Shown piece by piece: positions 6,741 through 26,571 of a stretch of 64,000 nt of DNA. The notes under the pieces were generated by a model. It was not told the DNA's origin, did no database searches, and saw only the letters and a program-made list of their open reading frames with translations. The stretch's first letter is position 1. Each line of letters opens with the position of its first letter. The position numbers and the translations under genes were made by a program. This stretch comes from Bdellovibrionia bacterium (GTDB taxonomy: Bacteria > Bdellovibrionota > Bdellovibrionia > Bdellovibrionales > JAGQZY01), in contig JAUICP010000003.1 in assembly GCA_030427805.1 (NCBI GenBank), positions 257,758-321,757 on the forward strand, read 5' to 3'.

Positions 6741-8465
6741 ATGCCTGATTGGAGTTATCACACCTCAATTAAATATGGACTCAATGCCCTTCCAAAAAAG
6801 GGGGCTCAATCTGTTGTTCTCGGTTCATTGGGTTTGTTGGGCTCCAATGGAGTTGGCCGACAAATTATTCGTCTTATGGGGCATATGGAGCCCCACGAAA
6901 AACTCGCCTATGATTTTATCAACTACAAACTAAAAAGTCCTGTGGCACTGGGACGCTCTGTCGATCCGAGGGCCCGGGCAAAAAAAGCCTTTAATGAGTT
7001 TGGAATTTCTTACCAAGAAATCAGTATCTCCTGTGTTGATAATCCCGATGATGTGGGTCTGGATCGTGAGATACCAAGCCTCCCGGTTGTTGACGACACA
7101 AACACCCTAAAAAAGTGGACCGAGTCTCGTTCAGTATTTCGCTTGGGAAGTATTGCTTCATCTAAAATTTTAGAAGAAAGACCTGAACTCACAGCACCTC
7201 GATGTATCTTCAGCTTTCCGGTAAATGCTCTCGATACAAGAAAAAGTATGAGTGCTGATCTCGACTACTTAAAATCCTGCGGTATAGAATGGATTCAACT
7301 GTCCTGGAGCGAAGACTCTAAGAAGAAGCAAATTGAAGATCTGATCGTCCTGTTAAAGGATCGAGGTTTTTCCGTCATTCTTGCGACCGCAGTTTTAGAG
7401 CCCGAAGATGCGCGAAATTATAAAGAGCTTGGTATTAAACATTTTGTTGTCAACGAAGCCCTTAAAATTTCAGGCCCCGGTCTGCCCAAGCGACTTAACA
7501 ATAGTTTCATTGCCAATGAAACCCTCTCTGAAGAAAAAATGCGCCCCACCCATTCGAGTTGGTTTTACGGCCTCTCACTGGGAATAGCCATGTTCATCGG
7601 TGGAATCATGGCGTGGCTCATTGCTCATCACAAGGTTCTTCTTCCCTACGACGAAGTTGGCGCTCAACTCAGCTTAGAGCAAATCAAAAATCTCAACGAA
7701 AAGATCCTTCACTTTCTCGTTCACGATCGAGTGACCTTGGCTGGAACTATGATTGCCATCGGCATTTTATATTCGAGTTTTGCCTGGTTCTCTATGCGAA
7801 GAGGTGAAAAATGGGCTAAAGAAGCTGTCTGTTATTCGGCTCTTTTTGGTTTTATCAATTTCTTTGCCTTTCTCTTTTACGATTACTTTGATGTCTTCCA
7901 CGCCTTTGTCACGGCCTGCCTTATGCAGATTTTTCTCCTTTGCGTGTACGCAGACCTTCCCAAGTTAAAGAAGGTCAATAAGCCCAGTCCTAAAAACGAT
8001 CGCGTTTGGCGAATGAGTCTATGGAGCCAAGCCCTCTTCGTAACCCAGGGACTTGGACTCATTCTGGCCGGACTCGTTATCACCTATTTTGGTGCCACCG
8101 AAGTTTTTGTCCCCCAAGACCTCGAGTATTTAGGACAACCAAGCGACCTTATTAGGGCTTTTCACAAAAACCTTGTTCCCCTCATAGCCCACGATCGCTG
8201 TACATTTGGTGGAATGCTCGTGTCTTCAGGAATATGCATACTGATGAGTGCTCTGCACGGCTTCGAGCGGGGTCGCTCCTGGCTATGGTGGGTTTATATT
8301 TTTTCTGGATTTCCACCCTACCTAATTACCCTCTGGGTCCATTTAGACATCGGCTACGTCAACCAATTTCACTTGGCTCCGGTCTATATCGGTATAGCCT
8401 TGCTGATCGGTGGGTTGGCATTAGGTGCTCCCTATCTCTTAGACAAAAAACACCTTAAAGATTAG
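6741..8465 (+). CDS. Dihydroorotate dehydrogenase-like (degenerate) N-terminal region fused to a duplicated multi-TM domain
   Basis: N-terminus MPDWSYHTSIKYGLNALPKKGAQSVVLGSLGLLG...MGHMEP...SPVALGRSVDPRARAKKAFNEFG resembles class-2 DHODH-like proteins; C-terminal half hydrophobic with two HDR-x-T-x-x-G repeats. Confidence 0.55.
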   Translation: MPDWSYHTSIKYGLNALPKKGAQSVVLGSLGLLGSNGVGRQIIRLMGHMEPHEKLAYDFINYKLKSPVALGRSVDPRARAKKAFNEFGISYQEISISCVDNPDDVGLDREIPSLPVVDDTNTLKKWTESRSVFRLGSIASSKILEERPELTAPRCIFSFPVNALDTRKSMSADLDYLKSCGIEWIQLSWSEDSKKKQIEDLIVLLKDRGFSVILATAVLEPEDARNYKELGIKHFVVNEALKISGPGLPKRLNNSFIANETLSEEKMRPTHSSWFYGLSLGIAMFIGGIMAWLIAHHKVLLPYDEVGAQLSLEQIKNLNEKILHFLVHDRVTLAGTMIAIGILYSSFAWFSMRRGEKWAKEAVCYSALFGFINFFAFLFYDYFDVFHAFVTACLMQIFLLCVYADLPKLKKVNKPSPKNDRVWRMSLWSQALFVTQGLGLILAGLVITYFGATEVFVPQDLEYLGQPSDLIRAFHKNLVPLIAHDRCTFGGMLVSSGICILMSALHGFERGRSWLWWVYIFSGFPPYLITLWVHLDIGYVNQFHLAPVYIGIALLIGGLALGAPYLLDKKHLKD

Positions 8466-10018
8466 TTTCCATCGGTTTCGATGAGGAGATTACTTGCATT
8501 GGGCTTATCGATCGGAAGCTTGTACATTTGCCCTGGCAAAGAACTCTCGCCAAACTTGGAGCCGCGAAGTGAAATAAATAAATCCGCATCGTGAATGTAA
8601 AGGCCCAGACCCATGACACGAACAACTTCGTGGAGATCGTAGTTAGGACCTATGAGTCCGCTATACTTCCACTGCTCAGACAACGGGTCCTTATCAAAGA
8701 TATGCACCACACCACTATTTGTCGCCTGAGGAGTATCCCCTTTGGGGGCTCCAACAAAGAGTCTATTCCCATCGGCCACCATGGACCGAGCAAAGTGGTG
8801 GTCTAAATCAGAACCCTGTGGGTCATTGAGTGCGTGAAAGCGAGCATACTGTCCGTTCGCGCCTGAACTTTTTTGATAGACGTCGATGTGCCGTCTCCAG
8901 GTTCCGTCATTTTCGTCCTGCTCGCGGTACTTAATAAATAAAAAGTCATCGTGGGCTAAGAAGACTTTACCCCAGTGAATACTCTTGTCTGAGTAGTGAA
9001 CAATACTTTGCTCTATTCCGAGTGTGGATAAATCATAAACATGCATGGCTCCGTATCTTCTTTCAGGGCCAGCATCCTGGTCACTGGCTTCGAACCTGTA
9101 AGAATTTACGAAAAGCTTACCATTACTAATGTCAAAGTTTCGGCCAAACTCACGGTAGTTGGCTGGAGCATTGATAATGTCCTCCAAAGAAAATCCCTGA
9201 TCGATATCGTAAATATATATTTTCCCGGGACTACCTCCGCCATAGGAACCGACGTAGAGACGATTGCCTTGAACCAATATTTTGCAACCGTAGCGCGTCT
9301 CACCCTGTGGAGCGAGTGAACGAACTCGTTCAAATCGTCCCGATCCCAAATTAAACTCATAGACGTCCACCTGATTGTAATGGGCAGAACTTATAAAAAG
9401 TTTTCGTTGATAGACCGCGAGATTTTGACCGTAATAGAGTCTGGTTTCATCTGTAGAAGGATTCGAAATCGTTTGAATAAGCTGAGGTTCCAGCCCGGAA
9501 TTATCGAAAACCAAAACCTGCCCGGCCTTTGCGAAACTATCGTTAGGAGCTCTCTGGGCGGATACAAAAATTAAATTATCAGAAACGACCATTGGGTAAC
9601 CAAAAGACGAATGTCTCGCACCAATATCGACAATTTGTGGAGCGACAACACGAATTTCTATGGTTTCGACGACTTGGTTTTGTACAAGAATATCAACGAA
9701 TACACTTCCGAGGTAATCAGCGGCCGTTTCAATGAGGACAGAGTTACCATTTATTCTATCGGCAATCCACGCAGTTCCCTGGGCTATTCTAAATTGCACT
9801 GTCTCATAACTTGAATTCACTCGAACAGTAAAGGCAACACCCGATTCAACCTGATCGGGGGCGACAACTTGGATTCCAGTATAGGGGCCACCATTGCCAT
9901 CCCCAACACTAATTCCAGTGTAGGGCCCACCATTACCATCCGACGGCTCACAAGCTTGAAAGCTTAAGACCAAACCGACTAAGGCAATAAGAATGGAAAA
10001 TAGACCCACACGTTTCAT
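8462..10018 (-). CDS. Lipoprotein with beta-propeller (FG-GAP-like) repeats
   Basis: Start MKRVGLFSILIALVGLVLSFQACEP (lipobox); repeated blades of the type VxDNLIFVSAQ / VQGNRLYVGSYG / VADGNRLFVGAPKGD. Confidence 0.7.
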   Translation of the reverse strand: MKRVGLFSILIALVGLVLSFQACEPSDGNGGPYTGISVGDGNGGPYTGIQVVAPDQVESGVAFTVRVNSSYETVQFRIAQGTAWIADRINGNSVLIETAADYLGSVFVDILVQNQVVETIEIRVVAPQIVDIGARHSSFGYPMVVSDNLIFVSAQRAPNDSFAKAGQVLVFDNSGLEPQLIQTISNPSTDETRLYYGQNLAVYQRKLFISSAHYNQVDVYEFNLGSGRFERVRSLAPQGETRYGCKILVQGNRLYVGSYGGGSPGKIYIYDIDQGFSLEDIINAPANYREFGRNFDISNGKLFVNSYRFEASDQDAGPERRYGAMHVYDLSTLGIEQSIVHYSDKSIHWGKVFLAHDDFLFIKYREQDENDGTWRRHIDVYQKSSGANGQYARFHALNDPQGSDLDHHFARSMVADGNRLFVGAPKGDTPQATNSGVVHIFDKDPLSEQWKYSGLIGPNYDLHEVVRVMGLGLYIHDADLFISLRGSKFGESSLPGQMYKLPIDKPNASNLLIETDGN

Positions 10019-10162
10019 AGAAAGGTTCCCCTTCAACCTGATATCAGTCTAATGCAGGCCGAAGTTCATTATGATTATAAATTTGTCCGATAAAATAACC
10101 TTAAAATTAAGGGGTTTAGATCCTCGGCTCGTCTCACATTAATACAAAAAATAAAATGAAAA

Positions 10163-10714
10163 TTAAAATGGCAGACTGATGCCCGTTAAGAGATCCAATT
10201 GCGTCGCTTCGCCGTTCTGAGCTCCCGAAAGAAAGAGAAGTCGCACCTCAGCTTTCAAGTTGAGGTTTTGATTAAAAATTCTCTCCACTCCCGCACCAAA
10301 ACTATATCCGGCATAATTGGCATCTACCGATTGAAATTGCCTTTGGTTAAATGAAGCCGAAATAAATGGACGCCATATTTCTTGAAAGTAAAGCTTGGCT
10401 TCTTCAGAACTGGATCGATATTCAGAAGAGCTCGATATAGGAAAGTAAAAAAGACCCAGGTCAAATCCAAATGCCATATCTCCACCTATGATGCTCGACA
10501 TGGCCACCGAATAACCCAAGCCAAATTCAATTTGCCGGTGAACCGGCGTTAAATAATTGACCCGGTAAGAACCGAAGTTAGAAAACTCTCCCTCGGATTG
10601 ATCGGTCTTTGCCGACAGCGAAAAGAATCCTCCGAGAATATCAAACTTACTCGCAGAAGCATGATTGGTTGCTAAAAATGTCAGGCTAAAAAGCCAAATA
10701 CTAAGCTGCTTTTT
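10163..10714 (-). CDS. Outer-membrane beta-barrel-like protein of the motor-like cluster
   Basis: Signal peptide (MKKQLSIWLFSLTFLATNHASA), alternating amphipathic strands, C-terminal aromatic (LLTGISLPF). Confidence 0.65.
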   Translation of the reverse strand, partial: KKQLSIWLFSLTFLATNHASASKFDILGGFFSLSAKTDQSEGEFSNFGSYRVNYLTPVHRQIEFGLGYSVAMSSIIGGDMAFGFDLGLFYFPISSSSEYRSSSEEAKLYFQEIWRPFISASFNQRQFQSVDANYAGYSFGAGVERIFNQNLNLKAEVRLLFLSGAQNGEATQLDLLTGISLPF

Positions 10715-12383
10715 CATTACCTGACTCACTGGCGAGTTCTTCTCTTCTCACCATTTCAAAATACACTTCAGCAATTCGCTCTCGAATCACCCCAATTGTT
10801 GCCTCACTCGGTCGACTCTCATCGAGTTGCTTCATTTTTTCTAAAAATAAAAATCGTTGTTTTTCAGAAAAGAGACTCTCTATGGCCTGGCGCTCGTCCT
10901 TAGGAATATTAAAAAGTGCAAGGGCCCAATCATCGACCGTAAATGACACAAATACCAAATATAGATTCATGGCATCGGCATCGAGAACACGAAAAAACGG
11001 TGGCCGCAAATATTCTAAAAAAGCCCCCTTCGCCGCCGTATAGATTTCTCGTTCTTCAGCGACACTGGCTTTTTTCAAGAATCGAAGTAAATCGCGATCG
11101 CGAATATAGTCTTTCAGTTCTTTCATGGAATTCTTTGGTTTGAGCTTAAGACCTCTTTCCATGGCCTCATCAAGCTCTTTATCCGTCAATTGTTTATAGG
11201 TTTTGTTCGGATCGAGAAGGGCTCCCCATGCGCCAGGAAAAGCAGCGCGACCGATCGGGACAGAAAGAGATTTCGGCATTTCTGACAGTATCGAAAATGC
11301 CACGTCTTGGTCCAAATCTCTTAAGAGTTGAGAACTTTGATCACCGAGACGCCAAACTTGAATCACCAAGTCCTGTAACTTTCGATTGTTTGTCTCAGGA
11401 CGATGGCGTAATAAACTTTCAATAAGATCCAGGGTTTGATAATCGACGCTTCCAGGGTCCGCGTAGGCACTAAACCACTCTTGACCACTCGATAGTGAAA
11501 AAATTCGACGTTGATCGCCTAAAGGAAGCTCATTTAGAAAGGCTCCCAAAAGTTTCGGATTCTCTGTCGCCAGCTCTTCAAGAGTTAGCATGTCTCCGAT
11601 ATTTGGAAACGAATCTGAAACGACCAAGTCATTTAATCGCTGCCTAAAAATTTCACGGGTCTTATGATTATCGCTCAATCGGATATCACCCATCCCCGCA
11701 CCGGAATGAGTGGGTGTATTAGGCGTCTGAGTTTGTGGCATACTCATCGGCGCTACTGGTGCCGAAGGGGCCTTGTCCGATTGACTCTTCACCTGATCTT
11801 GTATGATCGATAGGGCTTTGACGAGCTTGCCAATTGAAAGGCGTTGAATAAAGAATAGACCAAACAAGAAGGCCATGATGGTGATTCCAATGATCATTCC
11901 ATAGATTTCAAGGTCAATCTGGCTACCCCAGCGGCGTCTCGAAAGCTGGATACGATCCCTACCCGGTATGAGGCGAAGATCTTGAATCAAGGCCTCCCTA
12001 ATTTCTGCCGACTCCCCTTCGGATACTGACTCGGGAATAATTACATTGACTGTCGCACTACGAATTCGATTCGTTAAACTGTAGAGTGAAGCCGTTGGAT
12101 CATCCCATTCATCCTTTATGTTCTCGTACTCGAGGTCAAAGAAGGGAAGAGTTTCATTTTTGGGGCGATACTCTTCGTTACCGGTAGTTCTTCTTAAGGG
12201 ATCAATGCGCACAGTAATCAAAAAAGGCATATCCTTAAATCGATTTGAGAGAATTCGATTCGCCTTTTCTTTGTAGTAATCTTCTAACTCTAAAACCCGA
12301 GGGTGGCGTGAAGACTCTTGGGCCATCAATGTCACCGAAAAAAGAATACCGATAAAATAGATAAGTACTCTCATATTTTTCAT
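10701..12383 (-). CDS. Single-pass membrane protein: FliF C-terminal-like periplasmic region plus FliG-like cytoplasmic region
   Basis: Signal peptide; IRSATVNVIIPESVSEGESAEIREALIQDLRLIPGRDRIQL resembles the FliF collar region; TM segment IYGMIIGITIMAFLFGLFFI; C-terminal DDWALALFNIPKDERQAIESLFSEKQRFLFLEKMKQLDESRPSEATIGVIRERIAE resembles the FliG torque-helix domain; next to MotB. Confidence 0.6.
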   Translation of the reverse strand: MKNMRVLIYFIGILFSVTLMAQESSRHPRVLELEDYYKEKANRILSNRFKDMPFLITVRIDPLRRTTGNEEYRPKNETLPFFDLEYENIKDEWDDPTASLYSLTNRIRSATVNVIIPESVSEGESAEIREALIQDLRLIPGRDRIQLSRRRWGSQIDLEIYGMIIGITIMAFLFGLFFIQRLSIGKLVKALSIIQDQVKSQSDKAPSAPVAPMSMPQTQTPNTPTHSGAGMGDIRLSDNHKTREIFRQRLNDLVVSDSFPNIGDMLTLEELATENPKLLGAFLNELPLGDQRRIFSLSSGQEWFSAYADPGSVDYQTLDLIESLLRHRPETNNRKLQDLVIQVWRLGDQSSQLLRDLDQDVAFSILSEMPKSLSVPIGRAAFPGAWGALLDPNKTYKQLTDKELDEAMERGLKLKPKNSMKELKDYIRDRDLLRFLKKASVAEEREIYTAAKGAFLEYLRPPFFRVLDADAMNLYLVFVSFTVDDWALALFNIPKDERQAIESLFSEKQRFLFLEKMKQLDESRPSEATIGVIRERIAEVYFEMVRREELASESGNEKAA

Positions 12384-13099
12384 TTACTACCACCTAGCTC
12401 TGGTTCAATAATTAGGAGGACCTTTCTCGCCAAATCTCGAAGATCCAGGTCACGATATTTTTCAGGTAATTGCTCGACATACTCTGGTTGCAGGTTCAGG
12501 ACACCGTATCCAGCTAAACCCATTCGATTCAGAGGCACTCCAGCTTTTTGTAGAATTCTCATGGTCGCAACCGCTCTCAATGCCGAAAGTTCTAAGTTGT
12601 CTTTAAAAGCCCTTCCAGGCTTTTGAATCACTTTTCGATTGTCAGTATAGGCCTTCACTCCCAATCGGTATTTTCCAGCATAAGGCATGTATTTGTTAAC
12701 AAACTCGCGCAAGACTTTCTTTCCTTGATTCGTAGGCTTCGTATCTCCGACGCCAAAAAAGACAATGCCAGGGAAATCAACAACAATACGGTCACCAATT
12801 TTGCTAACTTCAGCGCCCCAGTTCTCAACAATTTCTTCGCTCACATCGGACTTGCCTTGTTCTTCACCCACTGACAGGCTTGCGTCGTCGCCGCCGGTGT
12901 TATGGGAACCCAGATCTTCAATATTACTAATTAAACTCTGGGCGAGCTTTTCTGCATTAATTTCTTGTTGATCAATCGAAAAGAAAAGAACGAAAAATGC
13001 CAATAGTAGTGTGACCATATCACCATAACTAATAGCCCAACTCCCTTCGGAGTCGACAGACATTTCGTGTAATTTCTTCTTTCGATTTCTCAAGGACAT
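12380..13099 (-). CDS. motB: MotB-like stator protein (TM plus OmpA-like domain)
   Basis: WAISYGDMVTLLLAFFVLFFS contains the conserved MotB TM Asp; OmpA-like LSALRAVATMRILQKAGVPLNRMGLAGYG. Confidence 0.88.
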   Translation of the reverse strand: MSLRNRKKKLHEMSVDSEGSWAISYGDMVTLLLAFFVLFFSIDQQEINAEKLAQSLISNIEDLGSHNTGGDDASLSVGEEQGKSDVSEEIVENWGAEVSKIGDRIVVDFPGIVFFGVGDTKPTNQGKKVLREFVNKYMPYAGKYRLGVKAYTDNRKVIQKPGRAFKDNLELSALRAVATMRILQKAGVPLNRMGLAGYGVLNLQPEYVEQLPEKYRDLDLRDLARKVLLIIEPELGGSK

Positions 13100-13905
13100 T
13101 AAGCAGCCTCGCTTTCGGCCATGGACTCTTGCATCCTCTGATGAATGATATCAACTCGGTCTCCAGGAGGCACATGAGAATTCAGTAATTCTTGCGCTTC
13201 GAGAAGTGACTTTTGTTCAATCGCCAAGATGACCGCTTCAAGGGCAATTTCAGCTTCAGCTTCATCTTCTTCGCCAAACTTTTGCACACTCTCACCCGCA
13301 GGATTGACAATCATATTGGATACAATCAAACCGTAGAATGTCGCTAAAAGTGCAATCGCCATTCGAAAACCAGTTTCCGCCGGGTCCATCCCCTCAGAAA
13401 TACCACGCATCAAGTGAATGAGACCAAGAACCGTACCGGCAAGACCAAATGCAGGAGGATACTTAGCCAGCGAGCGAATACTATTAGCGAGTTTGTGGGT
13501 TCTCACTGACGAACGGTAAATTCGCTCTTCTAAAATCGCGCGAATTTTATCCGGCGTAAAACCGAGGGAACCCAGCTCAAAGCCATCGCGAATGACTTCA
13601 TCCTTAAGATCTTTAACTTTGATTTCAGGTGCGCTTCGCGTCTGAGCATAGTTTTGGATGTGCCCGAAGTACTGGGACAATAGAAGCTTTCGATTCGTTG
13701 ATTTCTTAAAAAACAAATGTCCCAGTCGTCTTCTCAATTCTGAAGAGTTCTTCCAGGGAAATGTAATAATGGCCACTGCAAAGGTACCACCGAGTACCAC
13801 CGCAATTGCGACAAAGTCGTAGTAACTACTAAACCCCGTTTGCAGATGAATAATCGCAGCAATGATCGAAGCTGTTGAAATAAATAGTCCGATTAAAAAG
13901 TTCAT
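13099..13905 (-). CDS. motA: MotA-like stator protein
   Basis: FVAIAVVLGGTFAV, PPAFGLAGTVLGLI and ALLATFYGLIVSN motifs of the MotA family. Confidence 0.9.
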   Translation of the reverse strand: MNFLIGLFISTASIIAAIIHLQTGFSSYYDFVAIAVVLGGTFAVAIITFPWKNSSELRRRLGHLFFKKSTNRKLLLSQYFGHIQNYAQTRSAPEIKVKDLKDEVIRDGFELGSLGFTPDKIRAILEERIYRSSVRTHKLANSIRSLAKYPPAFGLAGTVLGLIHLMRGISEGMDPAETGFRMAIALLATFYGLIVSNMIVNPAGESVQKFGEEDEAEAEIALEAVILAIEQKSLLEAQELLNSHVPPGDRVDIIHQRMQESMAESEAA

Positions 13906-14540
13906 TCTTGCCCTCCACCTGCGGGAAGACGATCTACACCCAACGAACGCAACTTATTGACCATGGTTTCTGTTCTAGGGTTGTCGGGGTTCAGGCTAAA
14001 AGCTTTTATATAGTTGTCATAGGCTCTCTTGAGATCTTTTTGCAAGTAGTAAACGTTTCCAAGCAATCCGTAAACCACTGAGACATTAGGAAACTCTACG
14101 ACCAATCTCATGAGTCGACTTTCTGCCATCGGGAAGTTTCTTGAAGCAATAAAAGACTGACTCTCAGCAATCCCTTCCGCCAGGGCATTGAGACTCGAGT
14201 TAATGTCTTTACACTTTTGCGGAACCGAAACCTCTGACAACTTTGCTGAGTATGAAAATTCGGAAGGCAAAAAAGGTGTTGGTAGTAAAACGGATTTTGC
14301 ATGATATCCGTCTTTTTCGACTTCTAAACGAATGTTATCAGTCGAGGCTGAGCTAAGAACTTTTGAATCGATCTTAAGAGGTGTCTTTCCGAGGGCCGTT
14401 CGCGCTCCCCCATCTTCTGTTAAATAGACATCAGCTTCGTTTGGCGAGCTCGTAACAACAAGCTGACCCGATTGACAAGCCGTGGTTAGCAGAAGTGGCA
14501 ATACCACGAAAAACAAATACAATTGCGTTCTTATACTCAT
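13902..14540 (-). CDS. Lipoprotein with PEGA-like domain and TPR
   Basis: Lipobox LLTTACQSGQ; LVVTSSPNEADVYLTEDGGARTALGKTPLKI (PEGA-like); YGLLGNVYYLQKDLKRAYDNYIKAFSLNPDNP (TPR). Confidence 0.8.
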   Translation of the reverse strand: MSIRTQLYLFFVVLPLLLTTACQSGQLVVTSSPNEADVYLTEDGGARTALGKTPLKIDSKVLSSASTDNIRLEVEKDGYHAKSVLLPTPFLPSEFSYSAKLSEVSVPQKCKDINSSLNALAEGIAESQSFIASRNFPMAESRLMRLVVEFPNVSVVYGLLGNVYYLQKDLKRAYDNYIKAFSLNPDNPRTETMVNKLRSLGVDRLPAGGGQE

Positions 14541-14762
14541 AAAACACCTCATTCAGTTTTCGACAAATCTGTAGTGTATCTATACAAGACAATGGGACAG
14601 TTCCTTGAAATGAAAACCAAAGTCGAGGCACTAATGTTTCATAAGTAGAAAATATCGCGACTTTTGGCGGCAATTTGTGAAGATTCCATGGCAATACCGG
14701 CTACTTACTTCAATTAGGGGACCTCTTACCGATAAGACTATGTGAACGTTTGTGGGAAAATT

Positions 14763-17759
14763 ATGAAAAGACTGTCATTACTATTTATTCTGCTGTTATT
14801 TGTTTTTACAGGACCCGCCTGTAAAAAGTCGAATGATTTTGCCTTTACCGATGAAGGTAATAACACTCCCATCGAAAATGATGTCGACAACCTCACAATC
14901 ACTGAAACAATCCCCAACGCCAAAGACGTTGTTATTGAAATTGGAAATAGCCAAACCTTCTTTGCTTCAGCCAAGGCTCCTTTTGGCCGCTCCATCACCT
15001 ACACATGGGTTCTCGATGGTGTCCAACAACGCAAAGGGGAACAGCAATCTTTTATCATTGATTCTGCCGGATCCAGTCCTGGTGATAAATCACTTGAACT
15101 CATCGTTGAAGATGGTGTTGAGACCGAACGCTTTGACTGGGATGTTAAGGTCAATGGTGCACCTGTACTATCGACTTCGATTTCAGGAACACAAAAGGTT
15201 TCCGTGGATTCTACGATTAACTTTTCGGTTTCTGCTACGGATCCCAATGATGATGATGTCGTCACCTACACATGGCTTCTTAACGGCCTTCCTTCTGTGA
15301 ATCTCGTAGGAACCGACAACACGGCTGTATTGACCGGTGCCGTTTCGGATGTGGGCGCAATTAATGTACAGGTCGTCGCAAGTGACGGAACCGCTTCAGA
15401 TACTCTCACCTTTGCAACTGAAGTAAATCACTTTCCAGACGCCTGCAATAACCTGAGCCAGGATGAAATCTGTACCTATGCCGGAAACCCTAATATCGGT
15501 GATGGCATTAACCCCGACAATTCACTCTACGACGAACGCATTCGCCCCATTTCTAGTTGCCAAGATGACGTCGGAAATATTTTTATGACTGACTACCAAA
15601 ACGATGTAGTTTGGTACTACAACCGCAGTTCGACGACCACCTACAGTCGACTCGGCGTGAGCATTCCACCTCGAACCTTAAAAATCGTTGCGGGAACGGG
15701 CGAGGCAGCGTCCGGAGGAGATGGAGTCGCACTCCAGTCAGCACTTAACGATCCAAGGGGGTGTGCTTACCACGCTCCTTCAAAACGACTTTTTGTTTCT
15801 GAGTGGTCTGGTAGCCGAGTTAAGTATATTGATAATAATGGGCTTGTCTTTGGTGGAATGGGGTACGGTTCGAGCACGACCAATGGTGACGTCGCCTATA
15901 ATCACGACTGTGATAATCCTGCCGGAATGCACATTTACCTCAGTGATCTCTACATCGCATGCCGTTCTGACAATATGGTGCGCAGGTGGGACCTCAACAC
16001 GGATCAGGCCTATGTCGTTTATGGTGATGGCGGTGGTAATATCGATGGCGAAAGCGGTGACCCGACTCTAGCAGGAGCGCGTCGGCCCTACGATGTTTTC
16101 GCCGATGCCGATGGTCTCTATGTCGCCCATGATGAAAATCACCAGATTCGATTCATCAACCAATCCGGCGGTAACGTTACTTTTTGGGCAGCATCGACTC
16201 CTATCGTCGTTGCGGATAATACGGTTCGAAGAATCATCGGTGATGGTAATGGTGGAAATGAAGATGATGAGATTCCGCAAACAATGCGAGTGAGTAATAT
16301 TACTGGCGTCACCAAGACGGGCGATCTCATTCTTTATACTTCCAGGGGCAATGACCGTTTTTATGTGGCCAATAATACTGGTGCGCCCGTTGTTATCGAC
16401 GGTCTCACTGTCGACCCCGGAGAGGCCCGAAGAATTTCTCCGAACCGGGGCTATAACGGAACTAACATTGATCTAGCGATCGCCGAAATCAATGAACCCT
16501 ACGACATCCACGTTGACAACCAAAACGCCAATAAAATAATTTTTTCAGACTATAATAACTACCGCTTGCGCGAGATCGATCTTTCAACCGATAAAATGAA
16601 CGATATTATCGGCTCTGGTAAAGGAAGAAATGGTTACCTCGGAGATATCTCTAAACCAACTCTTCAACATCTCTTCAACTACCCTGGTGGCGTGGTTTTT
16701 GACAATGACAATCGTTACCTTTACTTTATCGATAAATCAAATAATAGAACTCGGGCTGTAGATCCCTATGGCAATATTCAAACCGTCATTGGTCGTGGCC
16801 AAGGTGATCCCGATGTGCAAAATGATGTTCCTTCAAATGCTTATATGTACACGACCCACAATTCGAACGACAATATGATCAATGGTATTGATCTTATGCC
16901 CGACGGCTCTGTAATTCAGCTCAATACTCGAAGAGACAGCTTCCGAATTTGGAATACCAGTACCACTGGAAAAATCTACTTCAACACATTTATTCAAGGC
17001 GATCGCATCTCGAACGTCGCCGGAGATTATACGGCTTCGGGTAACGGCGGTGATGGTCCAGCCCTTAGTATTAATATGGATAACCCAACGGATGTTGAAC
17101 ACTATAACGACGGAACGGAAGATTTTATTTTTGTGGTCGACCAAACCAATCACTGCGTGAGGATGCTACAAGAGGATGGTGATCTTGTTCGAGTTCTCGG
17201 AACCTGCGGCTCCAGTGGAAATTCCGGTCCGGATGTGGCCGAGGGTGCTGTTCTTTTTGATCGCCCCAATGGAATTGCCGTGGATAGTCTAGGTAATCTG
17301 TATATTACAGACTCCTATAATTCCAAAATTCGCTATTGGAACCGAACCGCTGCGACGGTATCCGTAGGGATTGTTAATGTCGGACCAGGTCGCGTCGCTA
17401 CAATAGCCTGCAATAACGGAACTTCAGGAAGCGCCTCAGAAGAAGTTTTTGCCACAAGTGCCCGCTGTAATAGACCCATGGGTATTGATGTTACAGACAC
17501 TCAGATCTGTTTTGCCAATACCTGGCGCCACAACGTGCGTTGTATTGACAAAACCACCGGAAAAATTCGCACCGTCGCTGGACAACTCGAGGCCACTCCT
17601 CGGGCCGGATCCCCTATTGGCTTTGAACAAGAAGGTATCAGTGGTACTTCTGCCACTCTCTACTACCCAAATGATGTTTATTTTGATGCCAACGGAGATC
17701 TCTTTATCTCTGACCAATACAATCACATCGTTCGCAAACTGAAGCTTTCTAGCGATTAA
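14763..17759 (+). CDS. Large lipoprotein with PKD/Ig-like and NHL-repeat regions
   Basis: MKRLSLLFILLLFVFTGPACKKS lipobox; FSVSATDPNDDDVVTYTWLLNG (PKD/cadherin-like); repeated NHL-like RPNGIAVDSLGNLYITDSYNSKIRYW. Confidence 0.8.
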   Translation: MKRLSLLFILLLFVFTGPACKKSNDFAFTDEGNNTPIENDVDNLTITETIPNAKDVVIEIGNSQTFFASAKAPFGRSITYTWVLDGVQQRKGEQQSFIIDSAGSSPGDKSLELIVEDGVETERFDWDVKVNGAPVLSTSISGTQKVSVDSTINFSVSATDPNDDDVVTYTWLLNGLPSVNLVGTDNTAVLTGAVSDVGAINVQVVASDGTASDTLTFATEVNHFPDACNNLSQDEICTYAGNPNIGDGINPDNSLYDERIRPISSCQDDVGNIFMTDYQNDVVWYYNRSSTTTYSRLGVSIPPRTLKIVAGTGEAASGGDGVALQSALNDPRGCAYHAPSKRLFVSEWSGSRVKYIDNNGLVFGGMGYGSSTTNGDVAYNHDCDNPAGMHIYLSDLYIACRSDNMVRRWDLNTDQAYVVYGDGGGNIDGESGDPTLAGARRPYDVFADADGLYVAHDENHQIRFINQSGGNVTFWAASTPIVVADNTVRRIIGDGNGGNEDDEIPQTMRVSNITGVTKTGDLILYTSRGNDRFYVANNTGAPVVIDGLTVDPGEARRISPNRGYNGTNIDLAIAEINEPYDIHVDNQNANKIIFSDYNNYRLREIDLSTDKMNDIIGSGKGRNGYLGDISKPTLQHLFNYPGGVVFDNDNRYLYFIDKSNNRTRAVDPYGNIQTVIGRGQGDPDVQNDVPSNAYMYTTHNSNDNMINGIDLMPDGSVIQLNTRRDSFRIWNTSTTGKIYFNTFIQGDRISNVAGDYTASGNGGDGPALSINMDNPTDVEHYNDGTEDFIFVVDQTNHCVRMLQEDGDLVRVLGTCGSSGNSGPDVAEGAVLFDRPNGIAVDSLGNLYITDSYNSKIRYWNRTAATVSVGIVNVGPGRVATIACNNGTSGSASEEVFATSARCNRPMGIDVTDTQICFANTWRHNVRCIDKTTGKIRTVAGQLEATPRAGSPIGFEQEGISGTSATLYYPNDVYFDANGDLFISDQYNHIVRKLKLSSD

Positions 17760-23511: not shown

Positions 23512-26500
23512 TTATTTGAGGAGCTGGAAGTCTTCAAAATCTTGAATCAGACCAGCCCTACAGCCATCAGTTGCAAATCCAAGGATTTCATCATTTCTTT
23601 TGAAAATCAATTCTTGATGGTAAGTATGCTGATAACAATCAGCATCCAAAGCTTTGGCCAAAGAACGAGCAAAATCCTGATAAAGGCGCTCGACCTCTTC
23701 TCGTGAATACCTGAAATAGACTGAACTCGTGTTCCAAGGGTTTGAAGTCCAAAAAAGGAGGCGGTCCCCAGGACTGATTCCCTTCGTAAGCTCCTCAAAC
23801 GACGTCATTAGGTCTAGGTTGAGAAAACGACTCTGGGCTAAATGTCCCATGGACGCCCAAAATGCCTCTTCCGAAGAATCAAAGGACTCAGTAATGACGC
23901 GATTCAAGTGATAGTCAAATGAAGAGCTCTCGACTCCCCAAGCTAAGAAATGCTCCTTAAGCTCCGCTCTCGACGTCTTCTGATAGGCCTCCTTAAAAAA
24001 CTCAAGAGCTTTCTGGCTATAGTCCACGATGAAACTTTTTGCCGGGGCTCGACCTTGAAAGTACTGATAGAGAGCCGTTGCCCCCTTAAATCCAGCGCAA
24101 ACCGTAGCAAAAGTATTGGGCTCAAAGCCCTCCAACTGCGGCAGGCGCATATCTTCATTATTAAAAAAGTAGATCACTTCCGTTTCTGACTTCCACTTTT
24201 TTTCACAGTGTTCAATAACTCTTTTAAAGTTCGGACCATTAATATCTCTTGGATAGGAGAAGTCCTTTGTTTTGCGCAAATCTCCACCCAAGTTAATGAC
24301 ATCTCTCCCCGACTCTAAACTTCTATGAATGACTTCCGTGGCCAGGGAGGCTCTTCCGGATTTAATACTCTTGTCACAGGTGGGCTTTAGCCACAAAGGA
24401 GTATAGTCATCGTGAACATTTTCAGGACTGACTTCGAAACCAGTCATTTCAAAATCGTAGAATTTTTCTGGCAAGCCAAACGAAGGTTGGCTCCATTGCC
24501 GATATTTTCTAATATCTAGAATAGCAAATTGCTCGTGGAGAAAAGGGAGCTTTTCTCTCCCACGATTCATTATATGCCCGCAAAGTCCAACGTCTTGTGA
24601 CTCCATTCGGGCAAAGGTTCGAAGAACCTCATAGCAAAAGTGATAAACTTCGAAAAAGAAACTACCAGCACCAACGATTAAAACAAAACGCTCATCGTTC
24701 TCGGGGATATCCTTAAGAAACTGATCGAGCTGAGACTCTTTGACCGTTTTATGGTGAAGAGGAAAAAGACTGGCATAACTAAAGTTATTGAGACTTTTTT
24801 TGAGTTCGTCGGCATTGAGCTCTACTTCGGGAACAGTAATCACAATTTGAAAAAGTTCGGCCAAAATATCGCGGTCCATAGAATGGCGGTACCACTCAGT
24901 TCTATAATTTTCGATTTGCTCCCAACTTCGGCCCGAAGTAGCAACCTTGTTGATAAGTCTTTGCACGCGGGCCTTTGGTGATGGAAACTGATTCTGTTCT
25001 TCGGCCAATTGTATAAGACGTTGGCGATCAATGTAGGTCGGTCCGTCTATAATCATATGGATTCTATTTTGCTCAGAATTATTCTCAACATAGTGATAAT
25101 TACCCACATTGATCAGCATAACCGAACCAGCGGTCATTGGGATCTTTTCGGTGTAGCGATTATGATTCCCGTCTTTATCGGTGCCAATAACGAACTCACA
25201 CCCCTCAGGCATATTGAGCGCTATATTTAAAGATAGACAAGGGCTACCATCCGGTGAATCTCTATGGACCTTAATCTTCGCCCCCGGCTCCAGAAGCATA
25301 AATCGAATGCGCTTGCAGGAATCAATATTGGTGAGGCTCTCTATAAACTTTAGTGTTTCTGGACATTCCACGGCGACTTCAGTCAAAGCATAATAAGGGT
25401 CGTCGGAGTCCGTGTACTCTGTGTGAAAAAGAGTGTTTTCTTTTCGCCCTTGGTAGGCCCGCAAAGGAAGACTCATCCACCGGGCCTCGTCCTCAGAAAA
25501 CTCTTGCCCGCGATGAACAACGTACTCATCGAGTAAAGCCTCGGCCTCTTTAAAACAGGCTTCGTGATCAAACTCTACTTTTAAATCGAGATAGGGGTGA
25601 ACTTCCAGGTGCTCAATCAACTCGGGAAAATAAAAGTACTTGATCTCTTTAAAGTCTTCTTTAGCTTCGACGATCTCAATTTTTGTGGACTCTCTTAATG
25701 GAACCCACCGATCCCTTTTTTCGATATCCCCAATGGGCATGTATCCACAAATGGATTCACTGGGTTCGAGATCATAGGAGCTCAACCACTCTTTGAAAAT
25801 AGAACTCTTCTTAAAAAAAGTTCTCCCCTTATACGGGTCGATTTCGATACCACCCGTGTAAATCAAGTTATGGGTTACATCCCAAGACCTGGGGTCGTCT
25901 TTGTCGAGAAAAGCCTGAAGGTGGTCTTTTCCTAGAATATCAATTTTTATAAAAACATTGTGCTCAGTCGAAAAATACTTATAGTGCTCTTCTTTAATCA
26001 TGCGAAACATGTCGTTTCGAGTTTGATTGGTATGGTCTTTGTTATTAAATTCTAAGAGCATGAGATTATAAACGTGCCTCGGAGCAAACTGACTCATTTG
26101 CTCGGAACGCTCATTGGGGTATAGAAAGTTCTCAAAATCGTGCACACCAAAATTGATTTCTTCTGTCAAAAAAGAAAAACGGTCCATTTTTTCGGGCGGA
26201 ACTTCGAACTGGGGCTCCCCATCCATCTGCCAACGGTTCTTAGTCAGAAAGGCCGTAGTAAATGCTCGGTGAAGAGCATTGGTCGTATCGCGGTCCATAT
26301 CTTTATGGGCCTTTAAGGGGCAGTTAAAATTGAAATCTCTATTTAGTTCTTCAAGAGCGCTATTGAGACGCTCAATGACTTCGGGCTTTGTCGGAATAAA
26401 GGGATCTTTTTCAAGGACGTCTTTATTGTAAAGTTGCGGTTTGGGATCTAGCTCAATACAACGCTCAAGGTGCTGCAACCATTCTTCGACAAATGGATTG

Positions 26501-26571
26501 TCTAAAAGGCGAATATGCCACTCCCCTCCCCCTTCGGGCCTTAAAATCACTTTCTTAGATGAATATCCCAC
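23512..26571 (-). CDS. 1019-aa multidomain protein with central aspartyl/asparaginyl beta-hydroxylase-like (cupin/2OG oxygenase) region
   Basis: RIRFMLLEPGAKIKVHRDSPDGSPCLSLNIALNMPEGCEFVIG...AGSVMLINVGNYHYVENNSEQNRIHMIIDG is AspH-like; N-terminal 300 aa shared with the 21528 gene; C-terminal ~400 aa unknown. Confidence 0.7.
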   Translation of the reverse strand: MGYSSKKVILRPEGGGEWHIRLLDNPFVEEWLQHLERCIELDPKPQLYNKDVLEKDPFIPTKPEVIERLNSALEELNRDFNFNCPLKAHKDMDRDTTNALHRAFTTAFLTKNRWQMDGEPQFEVPPEKMDRFSFLTEEINFGVHDFENFLYPNERSEQMSQFAPRHVYNLMLLEFNNKDHTNQTRNDMFRMIKEEHYKYFSTEHNVFIKIDILGKDHLQAFLDKDDPRSWDVTHNLIYTGGIEIDPYKGRTFFKKSSIFKEWLSSYDLEPSESICGYMPIGDIEKRDRWVPLRESTKIEIVEAKEDFKEIKYFYFPELIEHLEVHPYLDLKVEFDHEACFKEAEALLDEYVVHRGQEFSEDEARWMSLPLRAYQGRKENTLFHTEYTDSDDPYYALTEVAVECPETLKFIESLTNIDSCKRIRFMLLEPGAKIKVHRDSPDGSPCLSLNIALNMPEGCEFVIGTDKDGNHNRYTEKIPMTAGSVMLINVGNYHYVENNSEQNRIHMIIDGPTYIDRQRLIQLAEEQNQFPSPKARVQRLINKVATSGRSWEQIENYRTEWYRHSMDRDILAELFQIVITVPEVELNADELKKSLNNFSYASLFPLHHKTVKESQLDQFLKDIPENDERFVLIVGAGSFFFEVYHFCYEVLRTFARMESQDVGLCGHIMNRGREKLPFLHEQFAILDIRKYRQWSQPSFGLPEKFYDFEMTGFEVSPENVHDDYTPLWLKPTCDKSIKSGRASLATEVIHRSLESGRDVINLGGDLRKTKDFSYPRDINGPNFKRVIEHCEKKWKSETEVIYFFNNEDMRLPQLEGFEPNTFATVCAGFKGATALYQYFQGRAPAKSFIVDYSQKALEFFKEAYQKTSRAELKEHFLAWGVESSSFDYHLNRVITESFDSSEEAFWASMGHLAQSRFLNLDLMTSFEELTKGISPGDRLLFWTSNPWNTSSVYFRYSREEVERLYQDFARSLAKALDADCYQHTYHQELIFKRNDEILGFATDGCRAGLIQDFEDFQLLK

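Follow-up and report, generated by a model that had tools for sequence, protein, structure and literature searches.

We herein describe a compact locus in a 64,000-nucleotide stretch (hereafter, the window) of the genome of a Bdellovibrionia bacterium (GCA_030427805.1, contig JAUICP010000003.1, positions 257,758 to 321,757), in which a MotA/MotB stator pair is encoded together with a protein joining FliF-like and FliG-like parts in one chain, a lipoprotein and a small barrel protein. Our collective results suggest that this five-gene set (the cassette) encodes a hitherto unreported machine that drives the turning of some component of the cell envelope, and we consider it likely, at roughly two chances in three, that the machine is a flagellum-independent rotary motor with a fused FliF-FliG rotor. 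All five open reading frames are present on the minus strand of the window: a PEGA/TPR lipoprotein (gene 1, 13902..14552, 216 amino acids [aa]), MotA (13099..13905, 268 aa), MotB (12380..13099, 239 aa), the fused protein (gene 4, 10701..12383, 560 aa) and a putative small outer-membrane beta-barrel protein (gene 5, 10163..10729, 188 aa). In this order the genes overlap by 4, 1, 4 and 29 bp. The last value holds if the 188-aa gene starts at its GTG, and would be 17 bp from an in-frame ATG; the overlapping minus-strand layout (1-29 bp) reported in the initial annotation, which was made from the sequence alone, is therefore correct.

The argument is carried by gene 4, for whose product and family we use the shorthand FliFG (fused FliF-like/FliG-like protein). 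Searched by sequence alone against PDB and Pfam, gene 4 returns almost nothing; hence, its identity was settled by the family profile, a structure model and a homologue of the type found in Bdellovibrio bacteriovorus HD100 rather than by single-sequence searches. The window protein comprises a signal peptide, a periplasmic domain (approximately residues 28-150), a transmembrane helix (TM, 160-178), a linker and a FliG-like region (239-559). In AlphaFold2 models of FliFG, built with 15 relatives (pLDDT 77) or 47 relatives (pLDDT 83), residues 28-150 adopt an alpha-beta-insert-beta-alpha-beta arrangement, the linker is disordered and residues 239-559 are all-helical. When these models were compared with 350,542 PDB chains using Foldseek, ranks 1-16 were occupied exclusively by FliG or FliF structures in both cases; in one model ranks 1-10 were FliG (probability up to 1.00, E 2.7e-3 at best), pointing to the FliG M/C fold, and the FliF structures among the first 16 matches were those of the S-ring and of RBM3/collar. 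Profile comparisons matched the periplasmic part to FliF RBM3 (P 8e-4) and the C-terminal part to FliG-CC (P 6e-4), whereas the crossed comparisons were non-significant. Moreover, a basic residue stands at the position of E. coli FliG R281 in 47/47 FliFG members, most of which also have an acidic residue at the D288 position. Gene 4 is thus predicted to encode a FliF RBM3/collar-like periplasmic domain, a TM and a FliG-like cytoplasmic region, and both folds that the initial annotation had suspected in this protein were recovered by the structure model and Foldseek. Compared with FliF, FliFG has neither RBM1 and RBM2 nor the second TM, its periplasmic part spanning only ~130 residues and the signal peptide being followed by a single TM; compared with FliG, it is not of the soluble, FliF-recruited type, since it carries its own TM.

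The sequence bridge to bona fide FliG is provided by a genome (G031) which, judging by features that include where its three motAB pairs lie, we take to be almost certainly that of B. bacteriovorus HD100, and whose locus with MotA at 2.919 Mb we presume to be motAB2 (Bd3021/Bd3020). Besides a PEGA/TPR lipoprotein and a barrel-like protein of 194 aa, this locus (L199:11421-18191) encodes two proteins of 325 aa and 577 aa, the second at L199:11421-13154. The 577-aa protein matches FliG structures at E 6e-12, scores above the Pfam cut-offs for both FliG_M and FliG_C (40.2 bits for FliG_C), shares the layout of the window FliFG with one TM at 167-185, and aligns with the window family over its full length (E 7e-12 by profile, 3e-7 by single sequence). 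This homologue is our best evidence for a FliG origin of gene 4. At the position of the FliM-binding EHPQ of FliG, the alignment places ETPA in the L199 protein; as the unit also contains no FliM/FliN-type protein, no switch is to be expected. The HD100 locus thus resembles that of the window in combining MotA, MotB, a PEGA/TPR lipoprotein, a small barrel-like protein and a FliFG-type protein, but differs in its gene order, in the extra 325-aa protein, in an opposite-strand gene inside the locus and in that, unlike at most window-type loci, an NHL-repeat gene (see below) is not adjacent.

The stator pair itself is of the flagellar type. Both proteins far exceed the Pfam cut-offs (MotA_ExbB 68.9 bits against 22.9, E 4.5e-19; MotB_plug 47.5 against 24, E 1.3e-12), and MotB also carries an OmpA-like peptidoglycan-binding domain (E 4e-5). 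The best NCBIfam models for MotA are MotP/PomA/MotA, with TolQ reaching just 0.005, and its PDB matches are flagellar MotA/PomA structures (MotA 1.8e-20). Equivalents of E. coli MotA P173, T209 and P222 are identical in 40/40 sequences, and the MotB channel residue D27 together with the peptidoglycan-binding D167 and R175 is invariant in 14/14 sequences. In the larger of two phylogenetic trees cassette MotAs split from ExbB/TolQ at 100/100, which rules out a channel of the Tol/ExbBD/Agl class. The placement relative to flagellar MotA is uncertain, as only four long-branched flagellar MotAs served as references, and their grouping in the larger tree (93/88) was not recovered in the smaller tree. 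Zorya can also be dismissed: only MotB resembles ZorB, weakly, and matches to ZorA, ZorC, ZorD or ZorE were not found. The stator evidence also bears on a non-rotary transducer of Tol/Ton style, in which MotAB pulses would pull FliFG as a membrane-tethered connector to the lipoprotein and barrel, serving to maintain the envelope, to transport or to export the NHL protein. The presence of a lipoprotein and a barrel beside a proton channel does recall the Tol-Pal and TonB layouts, and the NHL protein may be a substrate rather than motor cargo; however, the separation of MotA from TolQ/ExbB, the lack of a TolA/TonB-like protein in the unit and a FliG torque-type fold that such a device would leave unexplained make this explanation improbable, and we would give it about one chance in ten.

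These genes are conserved as a set. Relatives of the 560-aa protein were detected in 17/60 near genomes by single-sequence search, and profile searches extended the family to 34/144 genomes of the class and 72/369 of the phylum. The order lipoprotein-MotA-MotB-FliFG-barrel on a single strand is exact in 41/48 loci across the phylum, with protein identities down to ~25%; five of the seven non-matching loci are truncated by contig ends or broken, and two (L183, L184) are genuine rearrangements. Such conservation of gene order and sequence excludes chance open reading frames, and the proposed packaging of a stator pair with a lipoprotein, a barrel and a FliF/FliG-like protein tethered to the membrane is borne out by the relatives, most of whose loci keep all of them together and in the same order. 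The five-gene unit drawn by the initial annotation stands as a conserved set, but it left unconnected a neighbouring conserved gene that encodes an NHL-repeat beta-propeller protein. In the window this gene lies divergently on the plus strand (14742..17759, 1005 aa; NHL 1.5e-10, PKD_4, He_PIG), whereas elsewhere it is usually found immediately downstream of the barrel gene on the same strand. NHL-repeat genes (998-2192 aa) adjoin 36/41 complete loci, and given this adjacency we count the gene as the sixth part of the unit; NHL proteins may also be common at other sites of these genomes. Its product is lipoprotein-like, with a Cys near the N-terminus (GPAC) and a PKD/Ig-like N-terminal part.

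The remaining envelope components have weaker Pfam matches. In the 216-aa protein TPR_1 (1.8e-6) is barely above and PEGA (0.005) under the Pfam cut-off; its lipoprotein Cys is invariant in 14 aligned homologues, and the protein is probably anchored in the outer membrane, as Cys26 is followed by Gln. The barrel assignment (OMP_b-brl 3.2e-4) is likewise under the Pfam cut-off, and the homologues share a conserved Gly/aromatic pattern in a 14-member alignment.

The source genome (4.5 Mb, 11 contigs) encodes 18 proteins of the MotA/TolQ/ExbB family, compared with nine in G031. It possesses one canonical FliG (353 aa) in a normal fliF-fliG cluster (L052) and at least two further stand-alone motAB pairs (L076, L077); therefore, the window pair is not its sole stator, and the other stators presupposed by the non-flagellar interpretation of the initial annotation do exist, alongside a canonical fliF-fliG. 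Moreover, the genome carries two paralogous cassettes. The second (L049:6287-11082, contig C7) is permuted to lipoprotein-FliFG(P659)-barrel-MotA-MotB, and the third (L075:15370-18517, contig C3) consists of lipoprotein-FliFG(P585)-barrel without adjoining MotAB, its stator pair being linked to it by the tree and located ~28 kb away (L076:6519-8364, C3). The window-family profile A1 had missed both P585 and P659, which came to light through neighbouring genes; a later profile comparison linked them to the window family (P659 E 1.8e-12, P585 1.5e-8; 7e-12 for the HD100-type protein). In the MotA trees P659-type and HD100-type proteins form supported groups, as do window-type proteins in the smaller tree, and P585-type MotAs are less resolved; the MotAs of one genome do not cluster together. 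Judging from these trees, MotA subtype appears to track FliFG subtype and not the genome.

Evidence for independence from the flagellum comes from the P585 subtype. Genome G035 (97% complete) contains neither FlhA nor a FliG_C match, yet it retains lipoprotein-P585-barrel (L122), with MotA and MotB (L216) ~22 kb away on the same contig, and this MotA is sister to the source-genome MotA of L076 (96/98). Hence, one stator-rotor subtype persists without a flagellum. Together with the canonical fliF-fliG cluster and the stand-alone pairs, this paralogous set rules out ordinary flagellar motAB as the default explanation. The same genomes speak to a further alternative, in which FliFG would be the base ring of a type III-like export apparatus energised by MotAB. 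RBM domains also form injectisome rings, and EscJ appears low in the Foldseek list; however, the unit includes no export-gate gene, and no flagellar or injectisome export genes were noticed near the loci that were read. FlhA is present once per intact genome, including the source genome, and is lacking in G035; therefore, no extra export apparatus is present. With no dedicated FlhA-type export gate we reject a type III system and regard a secretion ring of this kind as very improbable, at a few chances in a hundred.

Several observations weigh against a motor independent of the flagellum. The Foldseek E-values are modest (best 2.6e-3, none <0.001), and the sole Pfam match of the window FliFG, FliG_C, is under the cut-off (13.8 against 23.3 bits, E 0.07). 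The MotA R90-type charge is not conserved in the window subtype, where a basic residue is scattered, whereas 13/14 MotAs of the other cassette types have R at this position; the R90/E98 region aligns poorly, and the missing residue may reflect a changed torque interface. Flagellum independence covers the P585 paralogue, and its extension to the window subtype is our inference. FlhA is found in 68/69 carriers of that subtype; this co-occurrence says little about which of the two main readings is right, as almost all of these bacteria have flagella. Finally, the products of all three motAB pairs of B. bacteriovorus reportedly contribute to single-flagellum motility, according to the title of a 2011 study. 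A 2024 study likewise counted motAB2 of HD100 among three flagellar stators (PMC11323537), and the accessible published work on motAB2 covers the stator pair only, as flagellar.

These points would be accommodated by an accessory flagellar module, in which the cassette stator would drive the ordinary flagellar motor or be exchanged into it, and FliFG would build, with the lipoprotein, barrel and NHL protein, an additional ring or scaffold around this motor for torque or sheath. The FlhA co-occurrence and the motility credited to motAB2, the likely HD100 homologue, fit such a module, as does the strong change of motAB2 expression in fliL mutants, which, like motA3 mutants, are slow (PMC11323537). 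However, FliL Bd1076 bound MotB3 and neither MotA2 nor MotB2, in an assay that is weak in that it also missed MotA-MotB contacts (PMC11323537). Furthermore, the cassette genes lie apart from flagellar clusters, MotA subtypes pair with FliFG subtypes, the FliG domain and membrane anchor of FliFG would be superfluous for a scaffold, and the flagellum-less G035 retains a paralogous stator, lipoprotein, FliFG and barrel. We thus regard an accessory flagellar module as unlikely, at about one chance in five, and favor a rotary envelope motor that operates without the flagellum.

In the mechanism that we propose for such a motor, MotA and MotB would make up a flagellar-type stator, powered by ions and anchored to peptidoglycan, whose output partner would be the dedicated FliFG and not the flagellar FliG. 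In FliFG, which presumably assembles into a ring, a membrane helix is predicted to join an MS-ring-type periplasmic domain to a FliG-like torque domain within one chain. Ion flow would turn the MotA ring, which would contact and push the FliG-like domain; because the membrane helix connects this domain with the periplasmic one, its movement would reach the periplasm, dispensing with FliM/FliN, rod and export gate. From there, the PEGA/TPR lipoprotein, the barrel and the NHL-propeller surface protein may take up the movement, which would rotate or drag a component of the cell surface in adhesion, surface movement or prey contact. Of the ion-driven envelope machine with its own FliG-like partner that the initial annotation had proposed, the anatomy is thus retained as a conserved unit, and its rotation, its span of the envelope and its role, though plausible, are what we infer.

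Among rotary machines the flagellar motor is the textbook example, and to our knowledge its rotor proteins, FliF and FliG, are known only within flagella. The cassette shares with it the MotA/MotB families, the channel Asp and prolines, the OmpA-like anchor, FliF RBM3-like and FliG-like folds and the basic residue at the FliG R281 position. Unlike the flagellar motor, it joins the FliF-like and FliG-like parts in one chain with one TM, lacks RBM1/2, FliM/FliN, rod, hook and export gate, and is coupled to a lipoprotein, a barrel and an NHL protein, with a paralogue kept where there is no flagellum. The Agl/Glt gliding motor of Myxococcus, with homologues in Bdellovibrio, is also a flagellum-independent, proton-motive-force-driven stator-type channel with envelope and outer-membrane parts; however, AglRQS belongs to the TolQR/ExbBD class and has no FliG/FliF partner, whereas cassette MotA is of the MotA class. 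Zorya (ZorAB) likewise combines a MotAB-type pair and further genes in one operon, but the cassette has envelope partners and matches ZorB only weakly. The GldLM gliding motor of Bacteroidota, associated with the type IX secretion system, is a 5:2 motor within a trans-envelope machine that moves surface adhesins, and a similar stoichiometry may be presumed for the cassette; its partner set is unrelated to that of the cassette, and GldLM is stated to be non-homologous to MotAB (PMC13104615). The same 2026 review describes the gliding motor of Bdellovibrio as unidentified (PMC13104615). A 2025 survey divides MotAB and its relatives into flagellar proteins and generic transporters and treats FliG only as the flagellar rotor (PMC12505986), and in the open-access literature that we searched, FliF/FliG fusions are not described in any non-flagellar context.

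Additional observations concern the surroundings of these genes. Large lipoprotein-like proteins are encoded on both sides of the cassette (window 8462-10036, minus strand, and 14742-17759, plus strand); the former, a 524-aa protein with a weak FG-GAP match, was seen beside the cassette, among relatives, in the closest one only. A 1019-aa protein (window 23512-26571, minus strand) contains a central Asp/Asn beta-hydroxylase domain and no other Pfam match. Short stand-alone FliG_C proteins (~140-260 aa) occur in addition to canonical FliG in nearly all relatives, and in the source genome at C6:1140679-1140990 (L039/L053) and C8:405155-405472 (L038/L050). In genome G026 a degenerate cassette (L071:7070-8907) comprises a barrel and a FliFG remnant that contains an in-frame TAG, with no MotAB nearby; the same genome retains an HD100-type set (L136).

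There is a fair chance that this putative MotAB-type rotary motor deserves the status of a class of its own. In its fullest form, to which we give even odds, the proposal is a minimal flagellar-type motor without a flagellum that turns an outer-membrane and surface NHL-propeller apparatus, comprises at least four subtypes in Bdellovibrionota, is a candidate for surface movement or prey handling, and is either a reduced relative of the ancestral flagellar motor or its sister. If a conserved stator and a fused FliF-FliG rotor indeed operate outside the flagellum, the motor module would be able to work alone, which would bear on its origin. Our analyses supply concrete candidate genes for such a machine, including the HD100 locus whose stator pair was read as a third flagellar stator.

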